From Candidatus Saccharimonadota bacterium (GTDB taxonomy: Bacteria; Patescibacteriota; Saccharimonadia; Saccharimonadales; Saccharimonadaceae), in NCBI GenBank assembly GCA_027492635.1, contig JAPUEH010000007.1, positions 186,001 to 250,000 on the forward strand: a stretch of 64,000 nucleotides of DNA, read 5' to 3'. The translations under genes were made by a program, and so were the position numbers. The notes under the pieces are model-generated. The model had not been told where the DNA came from. It did no database searches and saw only the letters and a list, made by a program, of their open reading frames with translations. This document shows, in pieces, positions 23,836 to 51,127 of this stretch; positions within the stretch are counted from its first letter, which is position 1, and each line of letters opens with the position of its first letter.

Positions 23836-23899
23836 GAGTTATCGCTATTGATTCGGCTCGTCCGAATGTGTGCGAGTAGAGGAATCAGAGGTGATTCAT
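23836..23899 (-). promoter_or_regulatory. Structured 5' leader with micro-ORF (copy A)
   Basis: Read on the minus strand, TGT-TATAAT (23910-23915) is followed after 10 nt by ATGAATCACCTCTGA, a five-codon ORF (MNHL-stop). Then come a hairpin GAATCA/TGATTC, the single-stranded-looking CTCTACTCG, and the hairpin TTCGGACGAGCCGAA, before a gap leading to AAGGAG and the exporter start. The order and several blocks match copy B at 37097-37170. Function (translational attenuation, ligand sensing) is inference. Confidence 0.55.
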
Positions 23900-24005
23900 A
23901 GTGTTTTTGATTATAACACAGTCTATCTTTTCATTGTAGCATATTTAGGAAATAATTACAAGTTTTTGTCTAGACGCGCAGGAAAATGAAGCGTATACTG
24001 GTGTG

Positions 24006-37087: not shown

Positions 37088-37096
37088 AAAAATACT

Positions 37097-37170
37097 ATGA
37101 TTCCCTGCTGGTGATTCAAAGGAATCCTCTACACGTGCACGTTCGGACGAGCCGAACCGCTAGCGTTATC
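37097..37170 (+). promoter_or_regulatory. Structured 5' leader with micro-ORF (copy B)
   Basis: TACAAT (37082-37087) is followed after 9 nt by a six-codon ORF (MIPCW-stop, 37097-37114). GATTCC (37099-37104) pairs with GGAATC (37121-37126), then CTCTAC (37127-37132), then the hairpin TTCGGACGAGCCGAA (37142-37156), then TAGCGTTATCG. GAGGAG precedes the Nudix ATG at 37196. Block order and several exact blocks match copy A (23836-23899). No known riboswitch class fits. Confidence 0.55.
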
Positions 37171-39770: not shown

Positions 39771-39914
39771 TAATGCAACAGAGCTAGTCGGTGCACGCAT
39801 CGTCTATAGAGTGTACCGCTAGAGCCATTACTGGGACTGCGGCAAATCGACGTACTTGGTCCCTATGATGCATAAGTGCGGTATAATTTGTCTAAGGATA
39901 ACTATAATACACGT
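39771..39914 (+). other. Intergenic region with hairpins
   Basis: No gene seen. Several GC-rich self-complementary stretches precede TATAAT at 39903-39908, the -10 box of the next gene. A second TATAAT-like box (GTATAAT at 39880) sits 22 nt further up. Confidence 0.4.
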
Positions 39915-42900
39915 ATGACAAAAGCGCCTTCCATTAGTCAACTAGCCAAGTACGGACTTGATTATGTAAGTCTTATTTCGAGTAGCGGCTCAAGAAGCCG
40001 ACCGGTTAAGACTGATCTCATTGATACTGCAAAGCTGCCAGCAGAGAAGCTCGTTTTTGGAGATGATGTTGACAGTGTTTCGCTCAAGTTGGTGACAGCG
40101 CTTGATAGCCAATACGATATGGAGACTCCCGAAGAAGAAAAGAGTGATGAACAAAAGCAGGCAGAACAGCGAGTTCAGCACGATAGAGAGCTTCTGAATA
40201 AACTACAGGAGATCGACACGAAGATCAAAACCGATGAATACACAAAGCGAGTAGTGATTCAAACGGGCTTTGTCTCATTTGAAGCGAAACGATACCTTGA
40301 TGCGGAGTATAGCGATGACTACGAGAAGTACGATGCGCCTTTGTTTCAGATTCCTGTTGCTTCTTTGTACTTTAGGTTCACCTCTGACGGTGTAGATGTC
40401 ACGATTAATATCGCCGATAATTATATCGAAGTAGCGAGTGGTGCACTGAAAAATTATCTGCCGCAACAATATTATGACACAATATTTACATTTATCACTG
40501 ACGCAGAAGCAGACGATAAGACAACTCGTCCTATCGCGAGAGAGTTCGCAGATGACCTCTGGTCGACAATTCGTGTCCAGCTTGAGCGTGTGAACGCTCG
40601 GAACATCTCAGAGGCTCCTCGCTACACGGGAAGTTGCGTTGCGCTTGCTGCTAAAACAAATCACTTCTTGGCAGAAGACCTAAAAGAGATAGCGGCACTT
40701 GAGGACGAGGCGCTTCTTGAAACATCACTCGGTAGCTGGGTGTCTGACGAAGACATGGCGATTGAGCAGACCGTGTCTGATGATGGGAGCACTGAGATAT
40801 TCTTTCCCTTTGATTACGACAAGTATCAATTAAAAGTCTTGGGCATTACTGGCAACAAAGCGGTTATTGTCGAAGGCCCGCCAGGGACTGGTAAATCCCA
40901 GACAATTTCAAACCTTCTTGTCCACTTGGCGGCAACTGGCAAACGTGTCTTGTTTGCAAGCCAAAAAGACCAGGCAATACGCGGCGTAAAAGACAAACTA
41001 AAAACGCTCGACATTCCTTTTCTCTATGGGTATATCCCTGACAAAACATCAAAGCTATATACGGAAGAAGATGAGAAGGATAGCGCTGCCAATACGCTCC
41101 TTGCGCTCAATCGAGAGTTTCAAAAAAGAAAAGTGGGAGATCTGAGACAGCCGCTAGCTTTGCTTTCTCGGTCTGCGAATACTTTTGTGGAAAGCCTCAA
41201 CAATGAGCGCTCTGTGTATACACTGTACGAGGAACGGCGAAGTCTTGGGTATCTGGATGCTATATACCCCTATGAAATTGATAGCGAGTGGTATAGCCAA
41301 GCATGTGCCGTCGAGGATACGATCGCCAGCCTGAAGGCAAGTGTCGCTGAGTATGAGGCTACACACGAAAAACTCATTGAAGCGGCGAGCAAAAAGTTTG
41401 GACATCTCGAGCTTGATTATCCGAGTACGATTGATGCCCTCATAAATATTCAAGACTACTTCAAAGCGAATATGCCCGAAAGGTCGGGATGGATAGGCGG
41501 CAAAGTAAACGAGGTCAAGCTTCGCAGTGCACTAAAAGACTATGGACGTAACTTGCTGCAAGAAATATATGTCGAAGTTGAGAAGGTGCTTTTCTCTGAT
41601 AGCACAAAGTCGGCTCGCTTGCAGCTGCTCGGCAGTCTGTCCGATTACTTTGTGTATGATAGCGAAAGACGGTCGGTTGCGGAGCAACAAGCTATCCTCG
41701 GCGATGTGCTGAAAAGTGTAGAAATGCCCGCGATCACGTATGATCTTTTGAAAGAGATTGTTTTGGGGCATGGAAAAGACAAAGTCTTTCAAGACCTCAT
41801 TCGTTATAACGATATCTCCGAGCAGATAGAAGAAATATCACTCTATTCCGCGAACGAATTTAATCGCGAAATAAAAGATATTCGAAAATTTTATAGAACG
41901 AATGTAGCAAATTATGTGCGTAATCGCATTTTAACGAGGGTGAGCGAGGCAAATGATAGCAAGGGCGTGAGGGCGACACTTGCTCAAGTTGCGCGCAGTC
42001 TCACAAAAAGCAAAAAAGCCAATAAAACATTCGACCGTCTCAAACACAATAGCGAGAACTTTGGTGCAATGTCGAAGGTGCTGCCAATTTGGATGATGAG
42101 TCTCGACGATGTAAGCCGAATTGTGCCGTTGGAGATGAATGCGTTTGATTACGTTATTATCGACGAGGCCTCTCAGTGTAATTTTGCGTATGCGTTTCCT
42201 GCGATGTTTCGTGCCAAACACACCATTTTCTTTGGTGATACCTTGCAGATGCGAGATGACAATATAATGTTCAAGTCCAACGATCAACTAAGTGCCATCG
42301 CCAAGAAACATAAGATTCCGGATGTTTATCAAATCAAGGCAGAGGAAGATACGGTAAAGTCTGTCATGGATATCGCTACTCTGAACGGTTTTAAGACTGC
42401 AACGCTGAAATATCATTATCGCTCTCCCAGAGAATTGATTGGATTTTCGAACGAGTCCTTTTATGAGCCTATTGGTCGAAAATTAGAGGCGGTTAACGAC
42501 AATATCGTTCCATATAAAGATACTGGTCGAGTGCTTTTGACACACATTGTTAAGACGAATAGTGATGAAGAATTATCCGATAAAACAAACCTTGCGGAAA
42601 TACGGAAGATTCAAGAACTGATCACTGAAATAAAAGATGACCCTGTGTTACACAGTAAATCTATCGCTGTGCTGACATTCTTCAACGAACAAGCAGAACT
42701 TCTGCGCGATACGATCAAAGATGAGGATATCAAAGTTTCTATTATTGATGGTATCCAGGGTGACGAGCGTGATATTATCATTTACTCGTTTGTCATAAAA
42801 GACCCGACCGACAAGAGGCGATATATCGCGCTGACGGGCGAAGGTGGCGAGATTCGTAAGGACATTGCGGCGGGGCGTGTTAATGTTGCTTTTAGCCGCG

Positions 42901-43781
42901 CGAAGTTGCAGGTCCATGCAGTTACTTCTCTTGCCCCTGAATTGTGGCCTGAAGGTATTTGGATTAAAAGGTATCTTGAGTATGTTGAGAACAATGGCAC
43001 AGTGATACGTCGTCATGGCAAAGACGAGCAGCAGTTTGACTCATACTTTGAAGAGGAAGTATTTGCTCATCTTGCACAGACGTTGGATGCGAGCGACTAT
43101 ACGCTTACGACGCAGGTCGAGTCTCTTGGCTTCAAGATTGATCTTGTCGTATATCGTAATGGTAAGAAGCTTGCGCTTGAGATGGATGGTCCATCACACT
43201 TTGAGGGTGGTGACGGACAGGTATATGTGAAGGATGATTGGGATAGGCAGTGTGCTTTGGAGACGGCAGGCTGGGACTTTTATCGTGTCTCATATTTTGA
43301 TTGGGTCAATGATCGGGCTGCTGAGCAAAAAGCCCTTGTTGAATATATACATCACTATTTCTCGGACACTAGGCCTAGAAGTAAGTCAGATGTCTTAAAA
43401 GAACTCGAGGGCGAAATGGTCACGCCCGAGGAAGCTCCAAAGGAGATGTATGTTACAGATTTTTCCGCGGAGCATGTTGACCATGTTACGGTAGTGGGGA
43501 CTGCTCCATCGGCACCTGTCTCGAAAACTATCGCTTCGGTAAAGAAGACGTTTAGTGTCGGTAGCCGCGAAGTCAACCAGGATGAATTTAATATCTATCT
43601 TGCATCGCATGTAGGCAGCGCGGTAACCGTGAGGTATCAAACGCCGCGAGCAAATAGTGCTAAGCATTGGCGTACAATTAATTTGGTGAAGTATGATGCA
43701 ACCTATCTTTATACGCATGCGCCGGATGGGCGTGATTATCTGGTAAAGTACCGTCGTGATCGTGTCGTTGAGTTTAAGTAG
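39915..43781 (+). CDS. Large SF1 (DNA2/NAM7-type) helicase with C-terminal PD-(D/E)xK nuclease and tail barrel
   Basis: A 1288-residue protein. Helicase motifs: Walker A GPPGTGKSQT (about residue 320), VIIDEASQ (about 748), GDTLQM, KYHYRSP, GIQGDERDIIIYS and VNVAFSRAK. Residues ~1035-1140 hold a DUF559/Vsr-like nuclease core: YFEEEV, KIDLVVY, ALEMDGPSHF and DWDRQCALETAGWDFYRV. Residues ~1215-1288 form a small beta domain (VTVRYQTPRAN...YRRDRVVEF) resembling a WYL/Sm-like barrel. TATAAT ends 6 nt before the ATG. The combination beside other defence genes suggests phage defence. Confidence 0.85.
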   Translation: MTKAPSISQLAKYGLDYVSLISSSGSRSRPVKTDLIDTAKLPAEKLVFGDDVDSVSLKLVTALDSQYDMETPEEEKSDEQKQAEQRVQHDRELLNKLQEIDTKIKTDEYTKRVVIQTGFVSFEAKRYLDAEYSDDYEKYDAPLFQIPVASLYFRFTSDGVDVTINIADNYIEVASGALKNYLPQQYYDTIFTFITDAEADDKTTRPIAREFADDLWSTIRVQLERVNARNISEAPRYTGSCVALAAKTNHFLAEDLKEIAALEDEALLETSLGSWVSDEDMAIEQTVSDDGSTEIFFPFDYDKYQLKVLGITGNKAVIVEGPPGTGKSQTISNLLVHLAATGKRVLFASQKDQAIRGVKDKLKTLDIPFLYGYIPDKTSKLYTEEDEKDSAANTLLALNREFQKRKVGDLRQPLALLSRSANTFVESLNNERSVYTLYEERRSLGYLDAIYPYEIDSEWYSQACAVEDTIASLKASVAEYEATHEKLIEAASKKFGHLELDYPSTIDALINIQDYFKANMPERSGWIGGKVNEVKLRSALKDYGRNLLQEIYVEVEKVLFSDSTKSARLQLLGSLSDYFVYDSERRSVAEQQAILGDVLKSVEMPAITYDLLKEIVLGHGKDKVFQDLIRYNDISEQIEEISLYSANEFNREIKDIRKFYRTNVANYVRNRILTRVSEANDSKGVRATLAQVARSLTKSKKANKTFDRLKHNSENFGAMSKVLPIWMMSLDDVSRIVPLEMNAFDYVIIDEASQCNFAYAFPAMFRAKHTIFFGDTLQMRDDNIMFKSNDQLSAIAKKHKIPDVYQIKAEEDTVKSVMDIATLNGFKTATLKYHYRSPRELIGFSNESFYEPIGRKLEAVNDNIVPYKDTGRVLLTHIVKTNSDEELSDKTNLAEIRKIQELITEIKDDPVLHSKSIAVLTFFNEQAELLRDTIKDEDIKVSIIDGIQGDERDIIIYSFVIKDPTDKRRYIALTGEGGEIRKDIAAGRVNVAFSRAKLQVHAVTSLAPELWPEGIWIKRYLEYVENNGTVIRRHGKDEQQFDSYFEEEVFAHLAQTLDASDYTLTTQVESLGFKIDLVVYRNGKKLALEMDGPSHFEGGDGQVYVKDDWDRQCALETAGWDFYRVSYFDWVNDRAAEQKALVEYIHHYFSDTRPRSKSDVLKELEGEMVTPEEAPKEMYVTDFSAEHVDHVTVVGTAPSAPVSKTIASVKKTFSVGSREVNQDEFNIYLASHVGSAVTVRYQTPRANSAKHWRTINLVKYDATYLYTHAPDGRDYLVKYRRDRVVEFK

Positions 43782-45765: not shown

Positions 45766-46848
45766 TTAACCTTTACCCTTCCTCCGATTATCCTCTCGGC
45801 ATAACATCTGGCAATTCTCAGCTGTCGTATGCCCACCCTCAACCCACGGTGTAATATGATCCGCTTCCATCTCGCGTAGCTCGAAATGCTTCCCGCACGC
45901 CACGCACACACCAGCCTGTCGCTCATACGCCTCGCGCTTCATATTGTCGGTAAAGGTGCGGATCGATAGGTATTTCTCCTCGCGCGTCAGCACGTATTCG
46001 TAGATGCCGGGCTTTTTCGTCACATCCTCGTCCATCATCAGGCGCACGATCTCATCCTCTAGCGCATCAGTATCAAAAGACCCATCTTTGTACGCGTTAT
46101 ACAACTTGCCCCAGTCCACGCCCTTCATCTCGCGGCGATACTGCGGAAACGTCAGCGTCACCCAGTTGATCACGCTCTGAAAATACATCCACAGCTCATT
46201 GGCATTCTGCGCGTGCTGATTCTCCGACATATACTGCTCGATATTACCGCCCGAAATCCATTTGATCGCCGTCTCTAGATAGTCTTGGCGGATTGGTGAA
46301 CCATTCACATAGTCTTTCGCCAAGTTGTACGCCGCGCCGTTACTGTGAGAGAAATATCGCTTCGCATCCGTCAGCCACGTGCCGGTATAAATCGCATTGC
46401 GCAGTTCTTGGTCGGTTAGCTTTTCACCGGCGATGTTGATCGTCTTGAACCATTCCAGCTTCTCGCGGTCGTCGCCCTCGCAGAAATACACCATCAGTTT
46501 GTAGTCGAGAATCTGCTCTTGCTCCTCGTGCATCAGGTTGTGAAAATACTGATACTCCACGCTAAAATCACCCGCCACATACTGGCACAAACTGATCGTC
46601 CGCTGCTGCCCGTCGAGTACTTCGTATGTGTCGTCTTCGTTCACCGCCCAGTACATCACGTTCAGCGGAAAATCCTTTCGCACTGTATCGATTACCGCGT
46701 CGCGCTGCGCATCTTTGTAGATAAACTCACGCTGATATTTCGGGCGGATGTTCAGCTTGCCATCATAGCCAATCACGCCTTCTTCTTCGTTGTTCACAAA
46801 ATTCTGCGCCACGTCGCGAACAGGGATTTCTTTGAGTTGGATTTTCAT
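45766..46848 (-). CDS. DUF262-HNH endonuclease
   Basis: A 360-residue protein. The N-terminal part is DUF262 (IRPKYQREFIYKDAQRDAVIDTV, then YEVLDGQQRTISLCQY, the DGQQR motif). The C-terminus is an HNH nuclease (CVACGKHFELREMEADHITPWVEGGHTTAENCQMLC) with the Cys pairs and DHITPW. DUF262-HNH proteins act as restriction or phage-DNA nucleases (GmrSD-like). It starts in an ATGA overlap with the EcoRI-family methyltransferase gene, so the two are one restriction-modification-like unit. Confidence 0.9.
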   Translation of the reverse strand: MKIQLKEIPVRDVAQNFVNNEEEGVIGYDGKLNIRPKYQREFIYKDAQRDAVIDTVRKDFPLNVMYWAVNEDDTYEVLDGQQRTISLCQYVAGDFSVEYQYFHNLMHEEQEQILDYKLMVYFCEGDDREKLEWFKTINIAGEKLTDQELRNAIYTGTWLTDAKRYFSHSNGAAYNLAKDYVNGSPIRQDYLETAIKWISGGNIEQYMSENQHAQNANELWMYFQSVINWVTLTFPQYRREMKGVDWGKLYNAYKDGSFDTDALEDEIVRLMMDEDVTKKPGIYEYVLTREEKYLSIRTFTDNMKREAYERQAGVCVACGKHFELREMEADHITPWVEGGHTTAENCQMLCREDNRRKGKG

Positions 46849-47777
46849 GATTGCTGCCTCCTTTTGATAAATATTCTGCTATACATCCTTTTGCCGTTAA
46901 TGTAGCCACGACCTTTTTCAATATTCAAATCGTACTCATTGCCAAGAATTTCGAATTGCTCAGGATTGTAGCTATCTAAAAAGGTAATAGGGACACCCAT
47001 TGTGCCATCGTAATCAACTGGAATATTGGCAACTTTTGAAACTTCGATTGCGTCGTAATTGTCATACTTCGGATATTCATCAGGATTGTATTGTTTGAAT
47101 AATGTCAGTTCTTCGTGGCGTTTCGATGTATCAAGATTTGTAAACCAAGAGATATTTCGGAACTTCACTAGTCCCGTCTTTTCGTCGTAGACGCCACTCG
47201 CAAATTCTTTAATGTGCGGAGTTTTGAAATATGCATTACCACCAGCAAATCCGTAACCAAGCCAGAGCGTATTTTGTTTGATTAGTTGAAAAATCTCTTT
47301 ATAGGTTGCGGCATTTTTACTGCCAATAATCAAAAACTTTTTGTCGTGCTCCATGAGCTGCGCCACGTATTCACGAAACAGCGAAAACGGAGGATTCGTC
47401 ACCACGACATCTGCTTCTTTCAAAATCTCGATACATTCATCACTACGAAAATCACCATTCTGCTTCAGTGGCGTCTTGACGATGTCATCGTCATTCACTG
47501 TGCCGTCTTCGTTCATATCACCAGTCAGTTCCAGCTTGTATGTCGATTTCTCACGATCGAAATGTGTGGCGACAAGCTTCTTTAGCCCGAGGCGCGTGAA
47601 GTTCAACGCAAAATACCGCCAAAAGTTACTCTCCACTGGATCATCACAATTCAGGAAAATAACTTTGCCTTTAAACTGCTCCCGATACCGCGAACACTCC
47701 CGCTCGATATCCCCAATCTGCGTATAAAATTCGTCTAGTTTCTGCTGTTTTGCTACGTGTAAGTTCTTTTGAGCCAT
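46845..47777 (-). CDS. EcoRI-family adenine-specific DNA methyltransferase
   Basis: A 310-residue N6-adenine methyltransferase: KLDEFYTQ (the EFYT motif), VIFLNCDDPVESNFW (SAM-related), and VTNPPFSLFREYV (NPPF, residues ~128-131), with the downstream GGNAYFKTP and ISWFTNLD segments of the EcoRI methylase family. The ATG at 47777 is chosen by family N-terminus; an in-frame GTG at 47807 is the longer alternative. It presumably protects host DNA from the coupled DUF262-HNH protein. Confidence 0.9.
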   Translation of the reverse strand: MAQKNLHVAKQQKLDEFYTQIGDIERECSRYREQFKGKVIFLNCDDPVESNFWRYFALNFTRLGLKKLVATHFDREKSTYKLELTGDMNEDGTVNDDDIVKTPLKQNGDFRSDECIEILKEADVVVTNPPFSLFREYVAQLMEHDKKFLIIGSKNAATYKEIFQLIKQNTLWLGYGFAGGNAYFKTPHIKEFASGVYDEKTGLVKFRNISWFTNLDTSKRHEELTLFKQYNPDEYPKYDNYDAIEVSKVANIPVDYDGTMGVPITFLDSYNPEQFEILGNEYDLNIEKGRGYINGKRMYSRIFIKRRQQS

Positions 47778-47823: not shown

Positions 47824-47950
47824 CAAAAAAGGCGACCACGTGCGTCGCCAAACTTAAACAATTCAGGTCGCAAGACTCAAATTGTAACACATGGTCACCT
47901 TTTTTCGTCTTGAAACCTAAATTGTTTCCGAATTGTTTAAGTTTGGCTCT
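47824..47950 (-). ncRNA. Candidate structured RNA or attenuator with interleaved inverted repeats
   Basis: Minus-strand TACAAT (revcomp of 47954-47959) would start a transcript near 47947. It opens with GCCAAACTTAAACAATTC (47930-47947), whose perfect 18-nt complement is 47847-47864. Inside, 47907-47918 pairs with 47865-47876 (10 of 12). The segment 47888-47905 is complementary, with two G-T pairs, to 47825-47842, which also forms a 6-bp hairpin followed by T6 (47824-47849). The stems are interleaved, so alternative folds (terminator versus antiterminator, or a pseudoknot) are possible. The methyltransferase starts 47 nt downstream. Confidence 0.55.
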
Positions 47951-48027
47951 TTTATTGTACAGTAGTCCACAGTTTATTGTTAGATGAACGTGGTTAAATT
48001 AGAATGATACTACTCTACGGGATGGTG

Positions 48028-50256
48028 CTATAGATACTCCTCTGTTAGAGATAGTTCAAACGGAGATAGTATAATCGTAAGCTCTGAAACCACAGATGGA
48101 TATTTGTCATGCAGCTGGTCGAATGTTTCACACCCTATAAATAGGTGCCTAATTTTCTTGATAATATCACTAGGGAGTCCGGCATCCTTTAACGCTACTT
48201 CGTGAACATCGTCAGCACCATATTCAAGCCTCATTAGTAGATAGTCGATATTAATTTCTGGATTGCTGGTCTCAAGAGCTACATAATTGTAGATGTTTCC
48301 AAATGCCTTTAAATATTTCGGCCACGCAAATTCTAGAAAGTGTGACGTGAACGTGAAAACATTTCTAATTCGTGTATTAATATTCTTCGATTGAGATATG
48401 ATGTTGTAGTTAATCAGCGAGGGTATATTTGGTTTTTGGCCTACCCAATACTTGGTAGCTGCGATAACTTGTCCTTCTGTCCATTTCTTCGATTGTTTAT
48501 CAGTCTCACTAAATAAGAACTGGTAAGTAAGTGACAAAATCCTTGAGAGGGTTTCATTATCGGGAATCAGACTGCTGAAATAACAGTCACTAATACTAGT
48601 ATTAAAACGTAGATAATTCAGTAATCTTATTTGCCCTTGAACGTCAATATAGCGGTTCATTCTAATAAGGGTTTCGGGAATATTCTCCTCTTGTAGCTTA
48701 TCCAGAAGTTCAGTCTTCTTTTTCTTGTCATCATCTCTGAGGTCACTATGCTCAACCTGTATTAACGACTCGAGGCTGATAGACTCTCCTTCCCAGTATT
48801 CAAGGTCGATTTTGTAGTCGTCTTCTTTGTCTTCGCTAAATTCATCGAGATATACAACATTGCCCGTAAAGTGAGTCTTAAAACGACCAGAACGGCCCTC
48901 GATATTTTTCCGTTCAAAAGGTTTCAATGGTCGAGACTTTCGACCGAGGTAGCTATCAAGAAGAAAAACACTTTTTGCTGAAGTATTTACTCCTTCAGTT
49001 AAGGAAGTGGTGCATACGATTTGCTCTATCTCGCCTTTTTCAAATGATTGCACTATCGCCTCTTGGATATGTCTAGGGATACCGCCGTGATGGAATCCTA
49101 CACCTTTCTTTAGGCAGTCAATTAAGCACCAATTCGGAGATACGGTATCGGAAATATATTGTAAAAGGTCTTGATTGTAATCAACGTCTTCTCGTTTGCC
49201 GTTTGCTAAATGGATTGCTGTTTTTTCGGCTGCATCTTTTCGATACCTGTACACAAGGCTACGCTTATCTTTGATATTCTCAATTGAGCGTGCGAGGGTT
49301 TTGTTCCCATCTTGAACAACACGAATTGGCATTCCAGAAAATCGACCAGAAGTTAAATCGGGTTTTCGGAAATAGTCTTTTTGTACGATCTCTGAATCAA
49401 AACGCATAAACCTTGCATCAAAGCGACTACAGAATCCGCCACTAAAGTCTGTAAAGAAGGGGCCGATTAGGTAAAAATTTCTACATGCCTTAGATAGCCT
49501 ATACAGACAGTAGGTGAAGACTTTGAATCGCTCATCTTCTGATTCAACATCTGTTTTGTAAATTTCATCCATTGCGAAGAAGTTGGGCTCAAAATCCGGA
49601 TGGTCATCTAGGAATGAGATTAATCGTTCGGGCGTAAGAACTAAAATATTCTTTCCATCTTTTGAGGGGTTCGTACGAGATGATTTCGAAATAGTATACT
49701 CTTTTCCGAGAGGCGACTTTTTCAATTTGTTATATTGTTCCGAGAGTAGGGCTACTGTCGGGAATATCAGTACGACATCCTTATAGCGATATTCTAGCAA
49801 TATCTCTTCGATTATTTTTGTTTTGCCAAAAGATGTGGGCGCGCTAACTACAACACGCGGATGTTCCCTGTAGGCATCGAGAATTGTTTTCTGGTCTCTG
49901 GTAAAAACGGTCGAACTAAATCTACTCGTGTAAAAGTCCTTCGCGAAATCTGAGAATAAGTCTAGCCTAGGGTTTCTATTGGTATCACCGCTTGCAAGCA
50001 TATCGCTGTAGAGAAAAATTCGTGACTTAGTTATACATTCGTTTAGCAACTCTCCTACATGGGACGATTTATTTTCTATTTCTGCAACGTGGCATATGGA
50101 TGAGAGCGCTAGATTGTAGTCTTCGGATTCGGCAGAGTTAAGAAGAAAGAAAGTGTTTCGTAGTAGCGTGGCAATATCTTCGTCCGGTAGGGATTTACCG
50201 TTCTTCAGAGCAGATACCTGATATTTAACCAGAACTCGTTCGTTATCGAAGAGCAT
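48028..50256 (-). CDS. hamB: Hachiman defence protein HamB (SF2 helicase)
   Basis: A 742-residue helicase. Motifs: SAPTSFGKT (Walker A, residues 138-146), MDEIYK (motif II, DEIY, about 230), TSLTEGVN (motif V) and IEGRSGRF (motif VI), preceded by a ~120-residue N-terminal region and followed by a long C-terminal domain. HamB senses or unwinds damaged/phage DNA and releases HamA in the Hachiman system. Its start overlaps HamA's end by 14 bp. Assignment rests on motif order and on the DUF1837 neighbour. Confidence 0.85.
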   Translation of the reverse strand: MLFDNERVLVKYQVSALKNGKSLPDEDIATLLRNTFFLLNSAESEDYNLALSSICHVAEIENKSSHVGELLNECITKSRIFLYSDMLASGDTNRNPRLDLFSDFAKDFYTSRFSSTVFTRDQKTILDAYREHPRVVVSAPTSFGKTKIIEEILLEYRYKDVVLIFPTVALLSEQYNKLKKSPLGKEYTISKSSRTNPSKDGKNILVLTPERLISFLDDHPDFEPNFFAMDEIYKTDVESEDERFKVFTYCLYRLSKACRNFYLIGPFFTDFSGGFCSRFDARFMRFDSEIVQKDYFRKPDLTSGRFSGMPIRVVQDGNKTLARSIENIKDKRSLVYRYRKDAAEKTAIHLANGKREDVDYNQDLLQYISDTVSPNWCLIDCLKKGVGFHHGGIPRHIQEAIVQSFEKGEIEQIVCTTSLTEGVNTSAKSVFLLDSYLGRKSRPLKPFERKNIEGRSGRFKTHFTGNVVYLDEFSEDKEDDYKIDLEYWEGESISLESLIQVEHSDLRDDDKKKKTELLDKLQEENIPETLIRMNRYIDVQGQIRLLNYLRFNTSISDCYFSSLIPDNETLSRILSLTYQFLFSETDKQSKKWTEGQVIAATKYWVGQKPNIPSLINYNIISQSKNINTRIRNVFTFTSHFLEFAWPKYLKAFGNIYNYVALETSNPEINIDYLLMRLEYGADDVHEVALKDAGLPSDIIKKIRHLFIGCETFDQLHDKYPSVVSELTIILSPFELSLTEEYL

Positions 50257-51127
50257 CTTCTATAACCTTGAGACTTTGTTTGATAGTTGCTACTGACTTA
50301 AGGGGGAACACGTAGAAAATAATATTTGTAGATAGGTGAGATGGCCACGTTTTACCCTTCAGGTAAGTGGTCGAGATATTTTGTAATTCAGCATCTATCC
50401 ACTGTTTAAATTCCTCAGATGTATGAGAGGTTGCCTTGCCTATGGCAGAGCTGTCGTAAGTCAGCAGAACTGGAATATTGATAGTGACATCATCAAGTGA
50501 GCGAGTTTTTCTTAGATATGGCATAAGAACATCATAATAATGCTGGTTAATTTTTGAATTCCGCTCAACGTTGTCGTAAAGCAGGTCAAGCTCGTTTCGT
50601 ATATAAGTGTCTTGGGTGTGTGCGCTGATGGACTTTATCGCATCTGCAACTCCACTACTAATGGTTTGGTGAAATTTCGCCTCACCTAGCCAAAGAATAA
50701 CTTCGTCATTATCTCCCACTGTAAAGTGTGCACAGTCGTAGCCCTTGATTTGTTCGCCTTTGCTGCTTCGTAGCTTTACTTTGGTGACGAATTTAGGTGC
50801 ATTTTCAAAAGCTTCTAGTATTAAGAATAGCAACAATTCACCGTAATCGCCCTTTGCGTTCTTATGAGCGTTTGATATGCGGTTTATTGCAGTAGAATTC
50901 GCTTCGGAGATGGCCATCTCTTTCATATATTGCTCATACTCATCGTGTGTAAGAGCGAAGCTCGGGATGGCGTCTCTAATGAGCTTTACTAACTCATCTT
51001 CTCTATATCGACCACTCTCATAATTTAGATGAAAGCAATTTGTGTCATTGTCGAGAATGCCATTATAACGAAACACGATATCTTGTGTTTTTATAGGTAT
51101 AGATGGGTCGAGTGTGGAGCCTTCCAA
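50243..51127 (-). CDS. hamA: Hachiman defence protein HamA (DUF1837 nuclease)
   Basis: A 294-residue protein with the DUF1837 core: KGDYGELLLFLILEAF, KVKLRSSKGEQIKGYDCAHF and EVILWLGEAKFHQ, where GEL, D and E-x-K make the PD-(D/E)xK catalytic set. HamA degrades DNA once HamB recognises its trigger. The only in-frame start found is TTG at 51127; the ATG at 51141 is out of frame, so the start (or a frameshift) is uncertain. TATAAT near 51160 lies upstream. Confidence 0.85.
   Translation of the reverse strand: MEGSTLDPSIPIKTQDIVFRYNGILDNDTNCFHLNYESGRYREDELVKLIRDAIPSFALTHDEYEQYMKEMAISEANSTAINRISNAHKNAKGDYGELLLFLILEAFENAPKFVTKVKLRSSKGEQIKGYDCAHFTVGDNDEVILWLGEAKFHQTISSGVADAIKSISAHTQDTYIRNELDLLYDNVERNSKINQHYYDVLMPYLRKTRSLDDVTINIPVLLTYDSSAIGKATSHTSEEFKQWIDAELQNISTTYLKGKTWPSHLSTNIIFYVFPLKSVATIKQSLKVIEDALR

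Follow-up and report, generated by a model that had tools for sequence, protein, structure and literature searches.

The window analysed here, a stretch of 64,000 nucleotides from the 1.0-Mb genome of a Saccharimonadota bacterium, carries on its minus strand the Hachiman genes HamA and HamB and, downstream of them, a restriction-like pair made up of an M.EcoRI-type adenine methyltransferase and a nuclease with GmrSD_N and HNH domains. Between HamB and the methyltransferase, just where the original prediction had placed a candidate regulatory RNA, lies a segment rich in inverted repeats (Table 1). The methyltransferase likely starts at the ATG at 47777, 47 nt past the T-run of this segment. Farther along the window, a 1301-aa ORF (39876–43781, plus strand) matches the PADLOC candidate defence models PDC-S37, Mko and Hhe, so that a larger defence island may surround the element.

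Table 1. Features of the element and of its neighbouring genes, in window coordinates
Feature	Position	Strand	Basis or remark
HamA, upstream	50243–51127	−	
HamB, upstream	48028–50256	−	
Possible −35 hexamer CTAACA	47978–47983	−	18 nt from −10; consensus scan only
−10 box TACAAT	47954–47959	−	consensus scan; same position kept in nearly all homologues
P1 5' strand GCCAAACTTAAACAATTC, arm B'	47930–47947	−	18/18 complementary to 47847–47864; P1 covaries
P2 5' strand CAAGAC	47907–47912	−	97.2% of cells paired; 6/6 pairs with changes on both sides
Six A's, extending the A' match to the U-run	47900–47905	−	
Apical arm A' GGTGACCATGTG, inside hairpin P3	47888–47899	−	complementary to arm A in 65/65 distinct copies, covarying
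Apical hairpin P3 GTGAC-CATGT-GTTAC, holding A'	47884–47898	−	fold; 81.6% of cells paired, weakest helix
P2 3' strand GTCTTG	47871–47876	−	covariation analysis of homologues
P1 3' strand GAATTGTTTAAGTTTGGC, arm B	47847–47864	−	complementarity, fold, covariation
Terminator hairpin GGCGAC-GCACGTG-GTCGCC	47831–47849	−	terminator scan; 93.6% of cells paired in homologues
Contested strand A (terminator loop and 3' half)	47831–47842	−	three-strand covariation
U-run T6	47825–47830	−	sequence; expected 3' end of a terminated leader of ~125 nt
M.EcoRI-type adenine methyltransferase, downstream gene	46845–47777	−	Pfam EcoRI_methylase, 410.6 bits
GmrSD_N + HNH nuclease, second cassette gene	45766–46848	−	Pfam; PADLOC REase_II

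All four inverted-repeat arms that had been predicted, in the order A B A' B', are present, with a perfect match between B and B' (18/18), a 16/18 match on the plus strand between 47825–47842 and 47888–47905, and the expected third nested stem (47856–47881 with 47902–47927, 81%). The two mismatches between A and A' are A·C on the plus strand and G·U on the minus strand, so that all 18 positions can pair in minus-strand RNA. The sole terminator-like site of the region is the predicted hairpin with its T6, which lies on the minus strand (GGCGAC-GCACGTG-GTCGCC-TTTTTT, 47849–47825), and the minus strand has a folding energy of −50.4 kcal/mol (z −5.46; 0/200 shuffles as stable) as compared with a z of −4.18 for the plus strand. 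Because the direction of the terminator, the stronger fold and the G·U character of the imperfect A/A' positions all point the same way, the minus strand is likely to be the sense strand. Read in this direction, the element (47947–47825) consists of a long hairpin formed by P1, P2 and P3, with an asymmetric bulge between P1 and P2, followed by an intrinsic terminator. The last three bases of the P1 3' strand (GGC, 47849–47847) are common to P1 and the terminator stem, and strand A has two alternative partners, the terminator 5' half and A'. The base of P1, near 47947, is the expected site of transcription start; the TACAAT announced for the expected start is found at 47959–47954, and the −35 region is weakly conserved among the homologues.

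A plain DNA search of 100 related genomes returned one copy, 70% identical and from another genus, which is flanked by unrelated genes and whose helices differ from those of the window copy by compensatory changes. A covariance model built from these two copies (R1), whose seed was made gap-free by adding one loop base and removing some others, found 8 copies in 151 genomes. R2, a second model built from those eight real sequences, detected 66 copies in 47 of the 394 genomes of the window's family, at 1–4 per genome, and 3 further copies in two additional families of the order, giving a total of 69 copies, all within Saccharimonadota. When a 380-genome sample of the phylum was searched with R2, no match appeared outside the window's family, indicating that the false-positive rate of the model is very low. 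The same model found no copy in three genomes of the window's own genus, and the distribution is thus patchy. Viral contigs gave 34 exact pattern matches, none of them with the structure, and therefore no sign of carriage by phages. No family of Rfam 15 matches the element at either gathering or relaxed thresholds; the model of the MicA sRNA (RF00078) reached 26.9 bits against a gathering score of 41 bits, and the likeness is confined to the terminator hairpin, the rest of the structure being unmatched.

In the subfamily comprising L097, L118, L131, L132, L158 and L162 the element reads GTCTAAACC...GGTTTAGAC with the terminator GACACC/GGTGTC; L097 and L158, which come from different families, have the same 164-aa membrane protein downstream, and L118 and L131 have related membrane proteins. 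L151–L154, all from one genus (g12), have a longer apical domain with the apical arm GCGGCCCNGC and a methyltransferase-like gene downstream.

Covariation was evaluated over 65 distinct copies. In the nested helices, 92.4% of the cells are paired as compared with 64.3% in shuffles, and 578 cells carry double changes as compared with 184; sliding the partners by 1–3 columns leaves no more than 40% of the nested cells paired. Covariation is seen in P1, in P2, in the terminator and in the A'-A helix, and P3 has moderate support only. Part of the nested covariation leans towards the structure, because the alignment was fitted to the model. The A'-A helix is not in the model and so offers a more independent test, although each of its arms was found through the complementarity itself. 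Its median length is 13 contiguous pairs. When whole arms were re-dealt among the copies, the paired fraction of its cells went from 94.2% to 79.0% (82.1% at the maximum of 1000 shuffles) and its double changes from 139 to 37 (maximum 61), and shifting the register reduced pairing in the variable part from 95% to 13–53%. Counted on the minus-strand sense, G·U far outnumbers A·C in P1 (90:3), P2 (23:4) and the A'-A helix (89:6), which indicates selection on the RNA of the element's strand; P3 as modelled shows no such excess (25:31), probably because its register is poorly aligned. Since the homologues carry compensatory changes in every helix, a chance origin is ruled out. Covarying copies, whose absence from relatives the original prediction had named as its refuter, were thus found by the covariance search.

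The covariation extends to all three strands that share the terminator sequence. Changes in the stem are matched as GCGRC/GCGAC/GTCGC in most copies, GGCAC/GACAC/GTGTC in four and GCACC/GCACC/GGTGC in one, and because the three strands change together, one strand is kept complementary to two partners, which is the signature of a switch. The A' base opposite the terminator-stem U is A in 31 of the 65 copies, G in 33 and a pyrimidine in a single one, in which the partner has changed too; pairing at this base is not required for P3 or for a loop-loop contact. As judged from these substitutions, the terminator and the anti-terminator pairings are both maintained in evolution. The capacity of the arm at 47888–47899 to pair with the terminator's 3' half, on which the predicted switch turned, covaries across the 65 copies, and at the level of sequence the idea of a regulatory leader with mutually exclusive stems, whose terminator could be disrupted by an upstream arm, is strongly supported.

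The surroundings of the copies are also constant in several respects. In nearly all of them the element is immediately preceded by a −10 box (consensus TGnTATAAT), and in 61 of the 66 evaluable copies a same-strand ORF starts 13–67 nt past the T-run, usually with a Shine-Dalgarno sequence; random orientation would place about half on the same strand, and the genes upstream of the element are found on either strand. A hairpin followed by a U-run, as predicted for an intrinsic terminator, is present in the window copy and in the homologues. The aligned copies themselves thus show the structure and its strand, where the −10 box lies, which gene follows and that both pairings have been kept up in evolution. 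With a co-oriented leader (61/66), a predicted intrinsic terminator and a conserved pairing that excludes it, the element has three features that characterize attenuators, and we consider it probable that this member of a Saccharimonadota RNA family is a leader that controls transcription in cis by attenuation. Both RNA shapes would then probably be used to control the downstream genes.

A different view is that the RNA is a stand-alone small RNA acting in trans, whose loops dimerise or pair with other copies or with mRNAs while the downstream gene is served by its own promoter. The element does have its own −10 box and terminator and exposes complementary apical and terminator loops, and a consensus scan found a weak promoter-like site between the terminator and the methyltransferase (47826–47797). 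However, promoter-like sites of such quality often arise by chance (12 found against 7.4 expected), and the location of 61 of the 66 copies just before the start of a same-strand ORF would be unexpected for a free RNA. The two arms are also more complementary inside one copy than across the copies that share a genome, with A' fitting its own A at 6.81 of 7 positions and the A of the other copies in the same genome at 5.81 of 7, and this better fit favours action in cis. We therefore regard a trans-acting RNA as unlikely.

As a cis-acting attenuator, the element would be transcribed from the base of P1 on the minus strand, and the nascent RNA would fold into the long P1/P2/P3 hairpin and then into the terminator hairpin with its U-run; by default, a large share of the transcripts would end at about 47825. 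A' would compete with the terminator 5' half for the 3' strand A, and if A' captured A, either as a pseudoknot or with partial opening of P1/P2, the terminator would not form and transcription would read through into the methyltransferase-nuclease pair. P1 and P2 would set when and whether A' is available. In this scheme we infer that the terminator is functional, that pairing of A' with A means read-through and that the balance between the two states is regulated, and the direction of ON and OFF would presumably be as given here. A nested energy model puts the terminator state lower in 62 of 64 copies (mean −46.8 vs −38.4), and a pseudoknot in which P1/P2 are kept and A' is freed is estimated at −55.5, with the pseudoknot penalty and sterics left out; by these estimates the terminator and pseudoknot states would be close in energy. 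A stiff P1/P2 rod may hold A' away from A in cis. If the tip folds back in cis, the lengths of P1 and P2 should compensate each other; they are indeed anticorrelated, but the hinge definition used largely forces this anticorrelation, and the result was set aside.

Conservation is concentrated in the paired arms, and the variability of the unpaired bases argues against a metabolite pocket. Our best guess for the trigger is a protein or a folding-rate condition that acts on the P2/P3 arm, rather than a small molecule. A LoaP/RfaH-type NusG paralogue was considered as the antiterminator and rejected: 12 genomes, some carrying the RNA and some not, gave one NusG-domain match each, and a single NusG per genome argues against such a factor. 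A leader peptide was rejected as well, the AUG in the apical loop not being conserved (CAUGU, CAUAU, CAUUU).

In 26 of 64 copies, an additional complement of strand A that is significantly good (p ≤ 0.05, at which about 3 copies are expected) lies between the terminator and the start codon, mostly as GCGACC just before GAAAGG; the window copy is without it. This complement may form a read-through hairpin or add a translational layer. The extra GCGACC before GAAAGG-type ribosome-binding sites occurs in L107, L112, L116, L119, L121, L128, L139–L141, L143, L145, L149 and others, and some of these copies have GUCGCU directly before the AUG; the GCGACC could form a hairpin of its own or pair with the terminator's 3' half. 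The leader might accordingly act mainly on translation or mRNA stability, with the hairpin protecting the 5' end, the GCGACC/GGUCGC strands gating the ribosome-binding site and the terminator only a partial filter, and the complements beside the Shine-Dalgarno sequence and right before some start codons point in this direction. They are absent, however, from the window copy and most others, and the terminator, retained with its U-run in every copy, covaries with A', so that we find this account quite improbable as compared with control by attenuation.

The downstream genes have no function in common. They comprise EcoRI-type methyltransferases (3), N6/N4 methyltransferases (3), another methyltransferase-like family (4), the GIY-YIG family (6), an SRA-domain protein (1), a protein with weak similarity to T4SS pilins, enzymes of sugar modification and of other kinds, and numerous small membrane or secreted proteins that match no Pfam family, the members of each gene cluster being assigned from one scanned representative. 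About 17 of the 64 are DNA methyltransferases, GIY-YIG or SRA proteins, and the majority of copies stand before genes for membrane, secreted, pilin-like or metabolic proteins. Among the EcoRI-type methyltransferase loci examined in the lineage, the RNA is present at 3 of 12 and absent from 9, and a fixed link between the two was rejected; the nine loci in related genomes that are without the RNA include the second such gene of the window's genome (G000:C19:7059–8177; L217, L223). Locus L103 (genome G162, of the window's family) shows no difference, across its full 3138 bases, from Candidatus Saccharibacteria bacterium UBA6209 of the phylum Saccharimonadota, where the cassette of RNA, methyltransferase and nuclease sits between pyrG-like and ribonucleotide-reductase-like genes (gene names from our own reading of the sequences), with no Hachiman.

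These observations bear on the part of the original prediction that is not supported, in which Hachiman and the restriction pair would be served by a toxic RNA or a phage-responsive attenuator. The site between HamB and the methyltransferase and the share of DNA methyltransferases, GIY-YIG and SRA proteins downstream are in keeping with it, but dozens of unrelated accessory genes follow the RNA, the cassette exists without Hachiman and most related EcoRI-type methyltransferases have no RNA. We conclude that the RNA is not, as such, a device of Hachiman or of phage defence, and that a defence-specific role is very improbable.

Integron attC core sites are RYYYAAC / GTTRRRY and have DNA-level structure. 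That the element acts as DNA, as an attC-like site, a miniature transposon or a mere bidirectional terminator, is suggested by its patchy distribution at 1–4 copies per genome and by the long palindrome with GCTAAAC...GTTTAGC ends in most copies, but is extremely improbable, because the excess of G·U over A·C shows one RNA strand to be selected, promoter, terminator and gene start are at fixed positions, GCTAAAC/GTTTAGC does not fit the attC core, and covariation of A' with A would serve no purpose in elements of this type.

As a kind, attenuators of transcription are familiar, but neither this RNA family nor the three-strand arrangement with an arm at the tip of a long hairpin is described in Rfam 15 or in the open-licence literature searched. 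The family places 69 leader RNAs with unusually clear three-strand covariation before surface and DNA-modification genes of ultrasmall Saccharibacteria. It is conceivable, although rather doubtful, that this class of multi-strand switches provides shared regulon control of horizontally moving accessory genes in episymbiotic Saccharibacteria in response to one common signal, with the GCGACC/GGUCGC code reaching the ribosome-binding sites. Restriction-modification systems, nucleases, surface proteins and pilins would be the accessory genes, and host attachment or the free-swimming state could be the signal. In Patescibacteria, the mechanisms of differentiation between life states have been called completely unknown (PMC11665869). 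The proposed mechanism requires nothing beyond a polymerase and the folding of RNA and is therefore already open to testing in vitro, and the element would be a native RNA part for lineages that have no inducible expression tools.

Two riboswitches resemble the proposed attenuator most in logic. In the ZTP/ZMP (pfl) riboswitch, a loop-mediated pseudoknot is the antiterminator and competes with an intrinsic terminator for the same strand (PMC7337938). The element shares this competition of pseudoknot and terminator for one strand, but it has no Rfam match and no conserved ligand pocket, its long-range partner is the tip of the long hairpin, which takes the terminator's 3' half, and it would use 11–14 pairs where ZTP has about four. 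In the fluoride (crcB) riboswitch, one tract belongs to both the pseudoknot and the terminator, which are likewise mutually exclusive (PMC11077080); there the overlap is six base pairs at the terminator base and the aptamer is small and highly conserved, whereas the unpaired positions of our element are variable and its downstream genes are not related to fluoride. With classical attenuators the element has in common its own promoter, a leader, an intrinsic terminator, a downstream gene and an alternative upstream pairing. It differs from them in that no leader peptide or tRNA-binding element was seen, in that the one family would control many unrelated accessory genes and in that all three strands covary. 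The MDR-NUDIX RNA (RF02918) is likewise a structured leader that precedes gene starts in this organism, although its sequence and structure differ from those of the element. Two of these RNAs lie in the window, at 23842–23902 (minus strand, 71.4 bits) and 37094–37166 (plus strand, 68.4 bits), each just 5' of an ORF start with a Shine-Dalgarno sequence and both behind TACAAT/TATAAT-like boxes.
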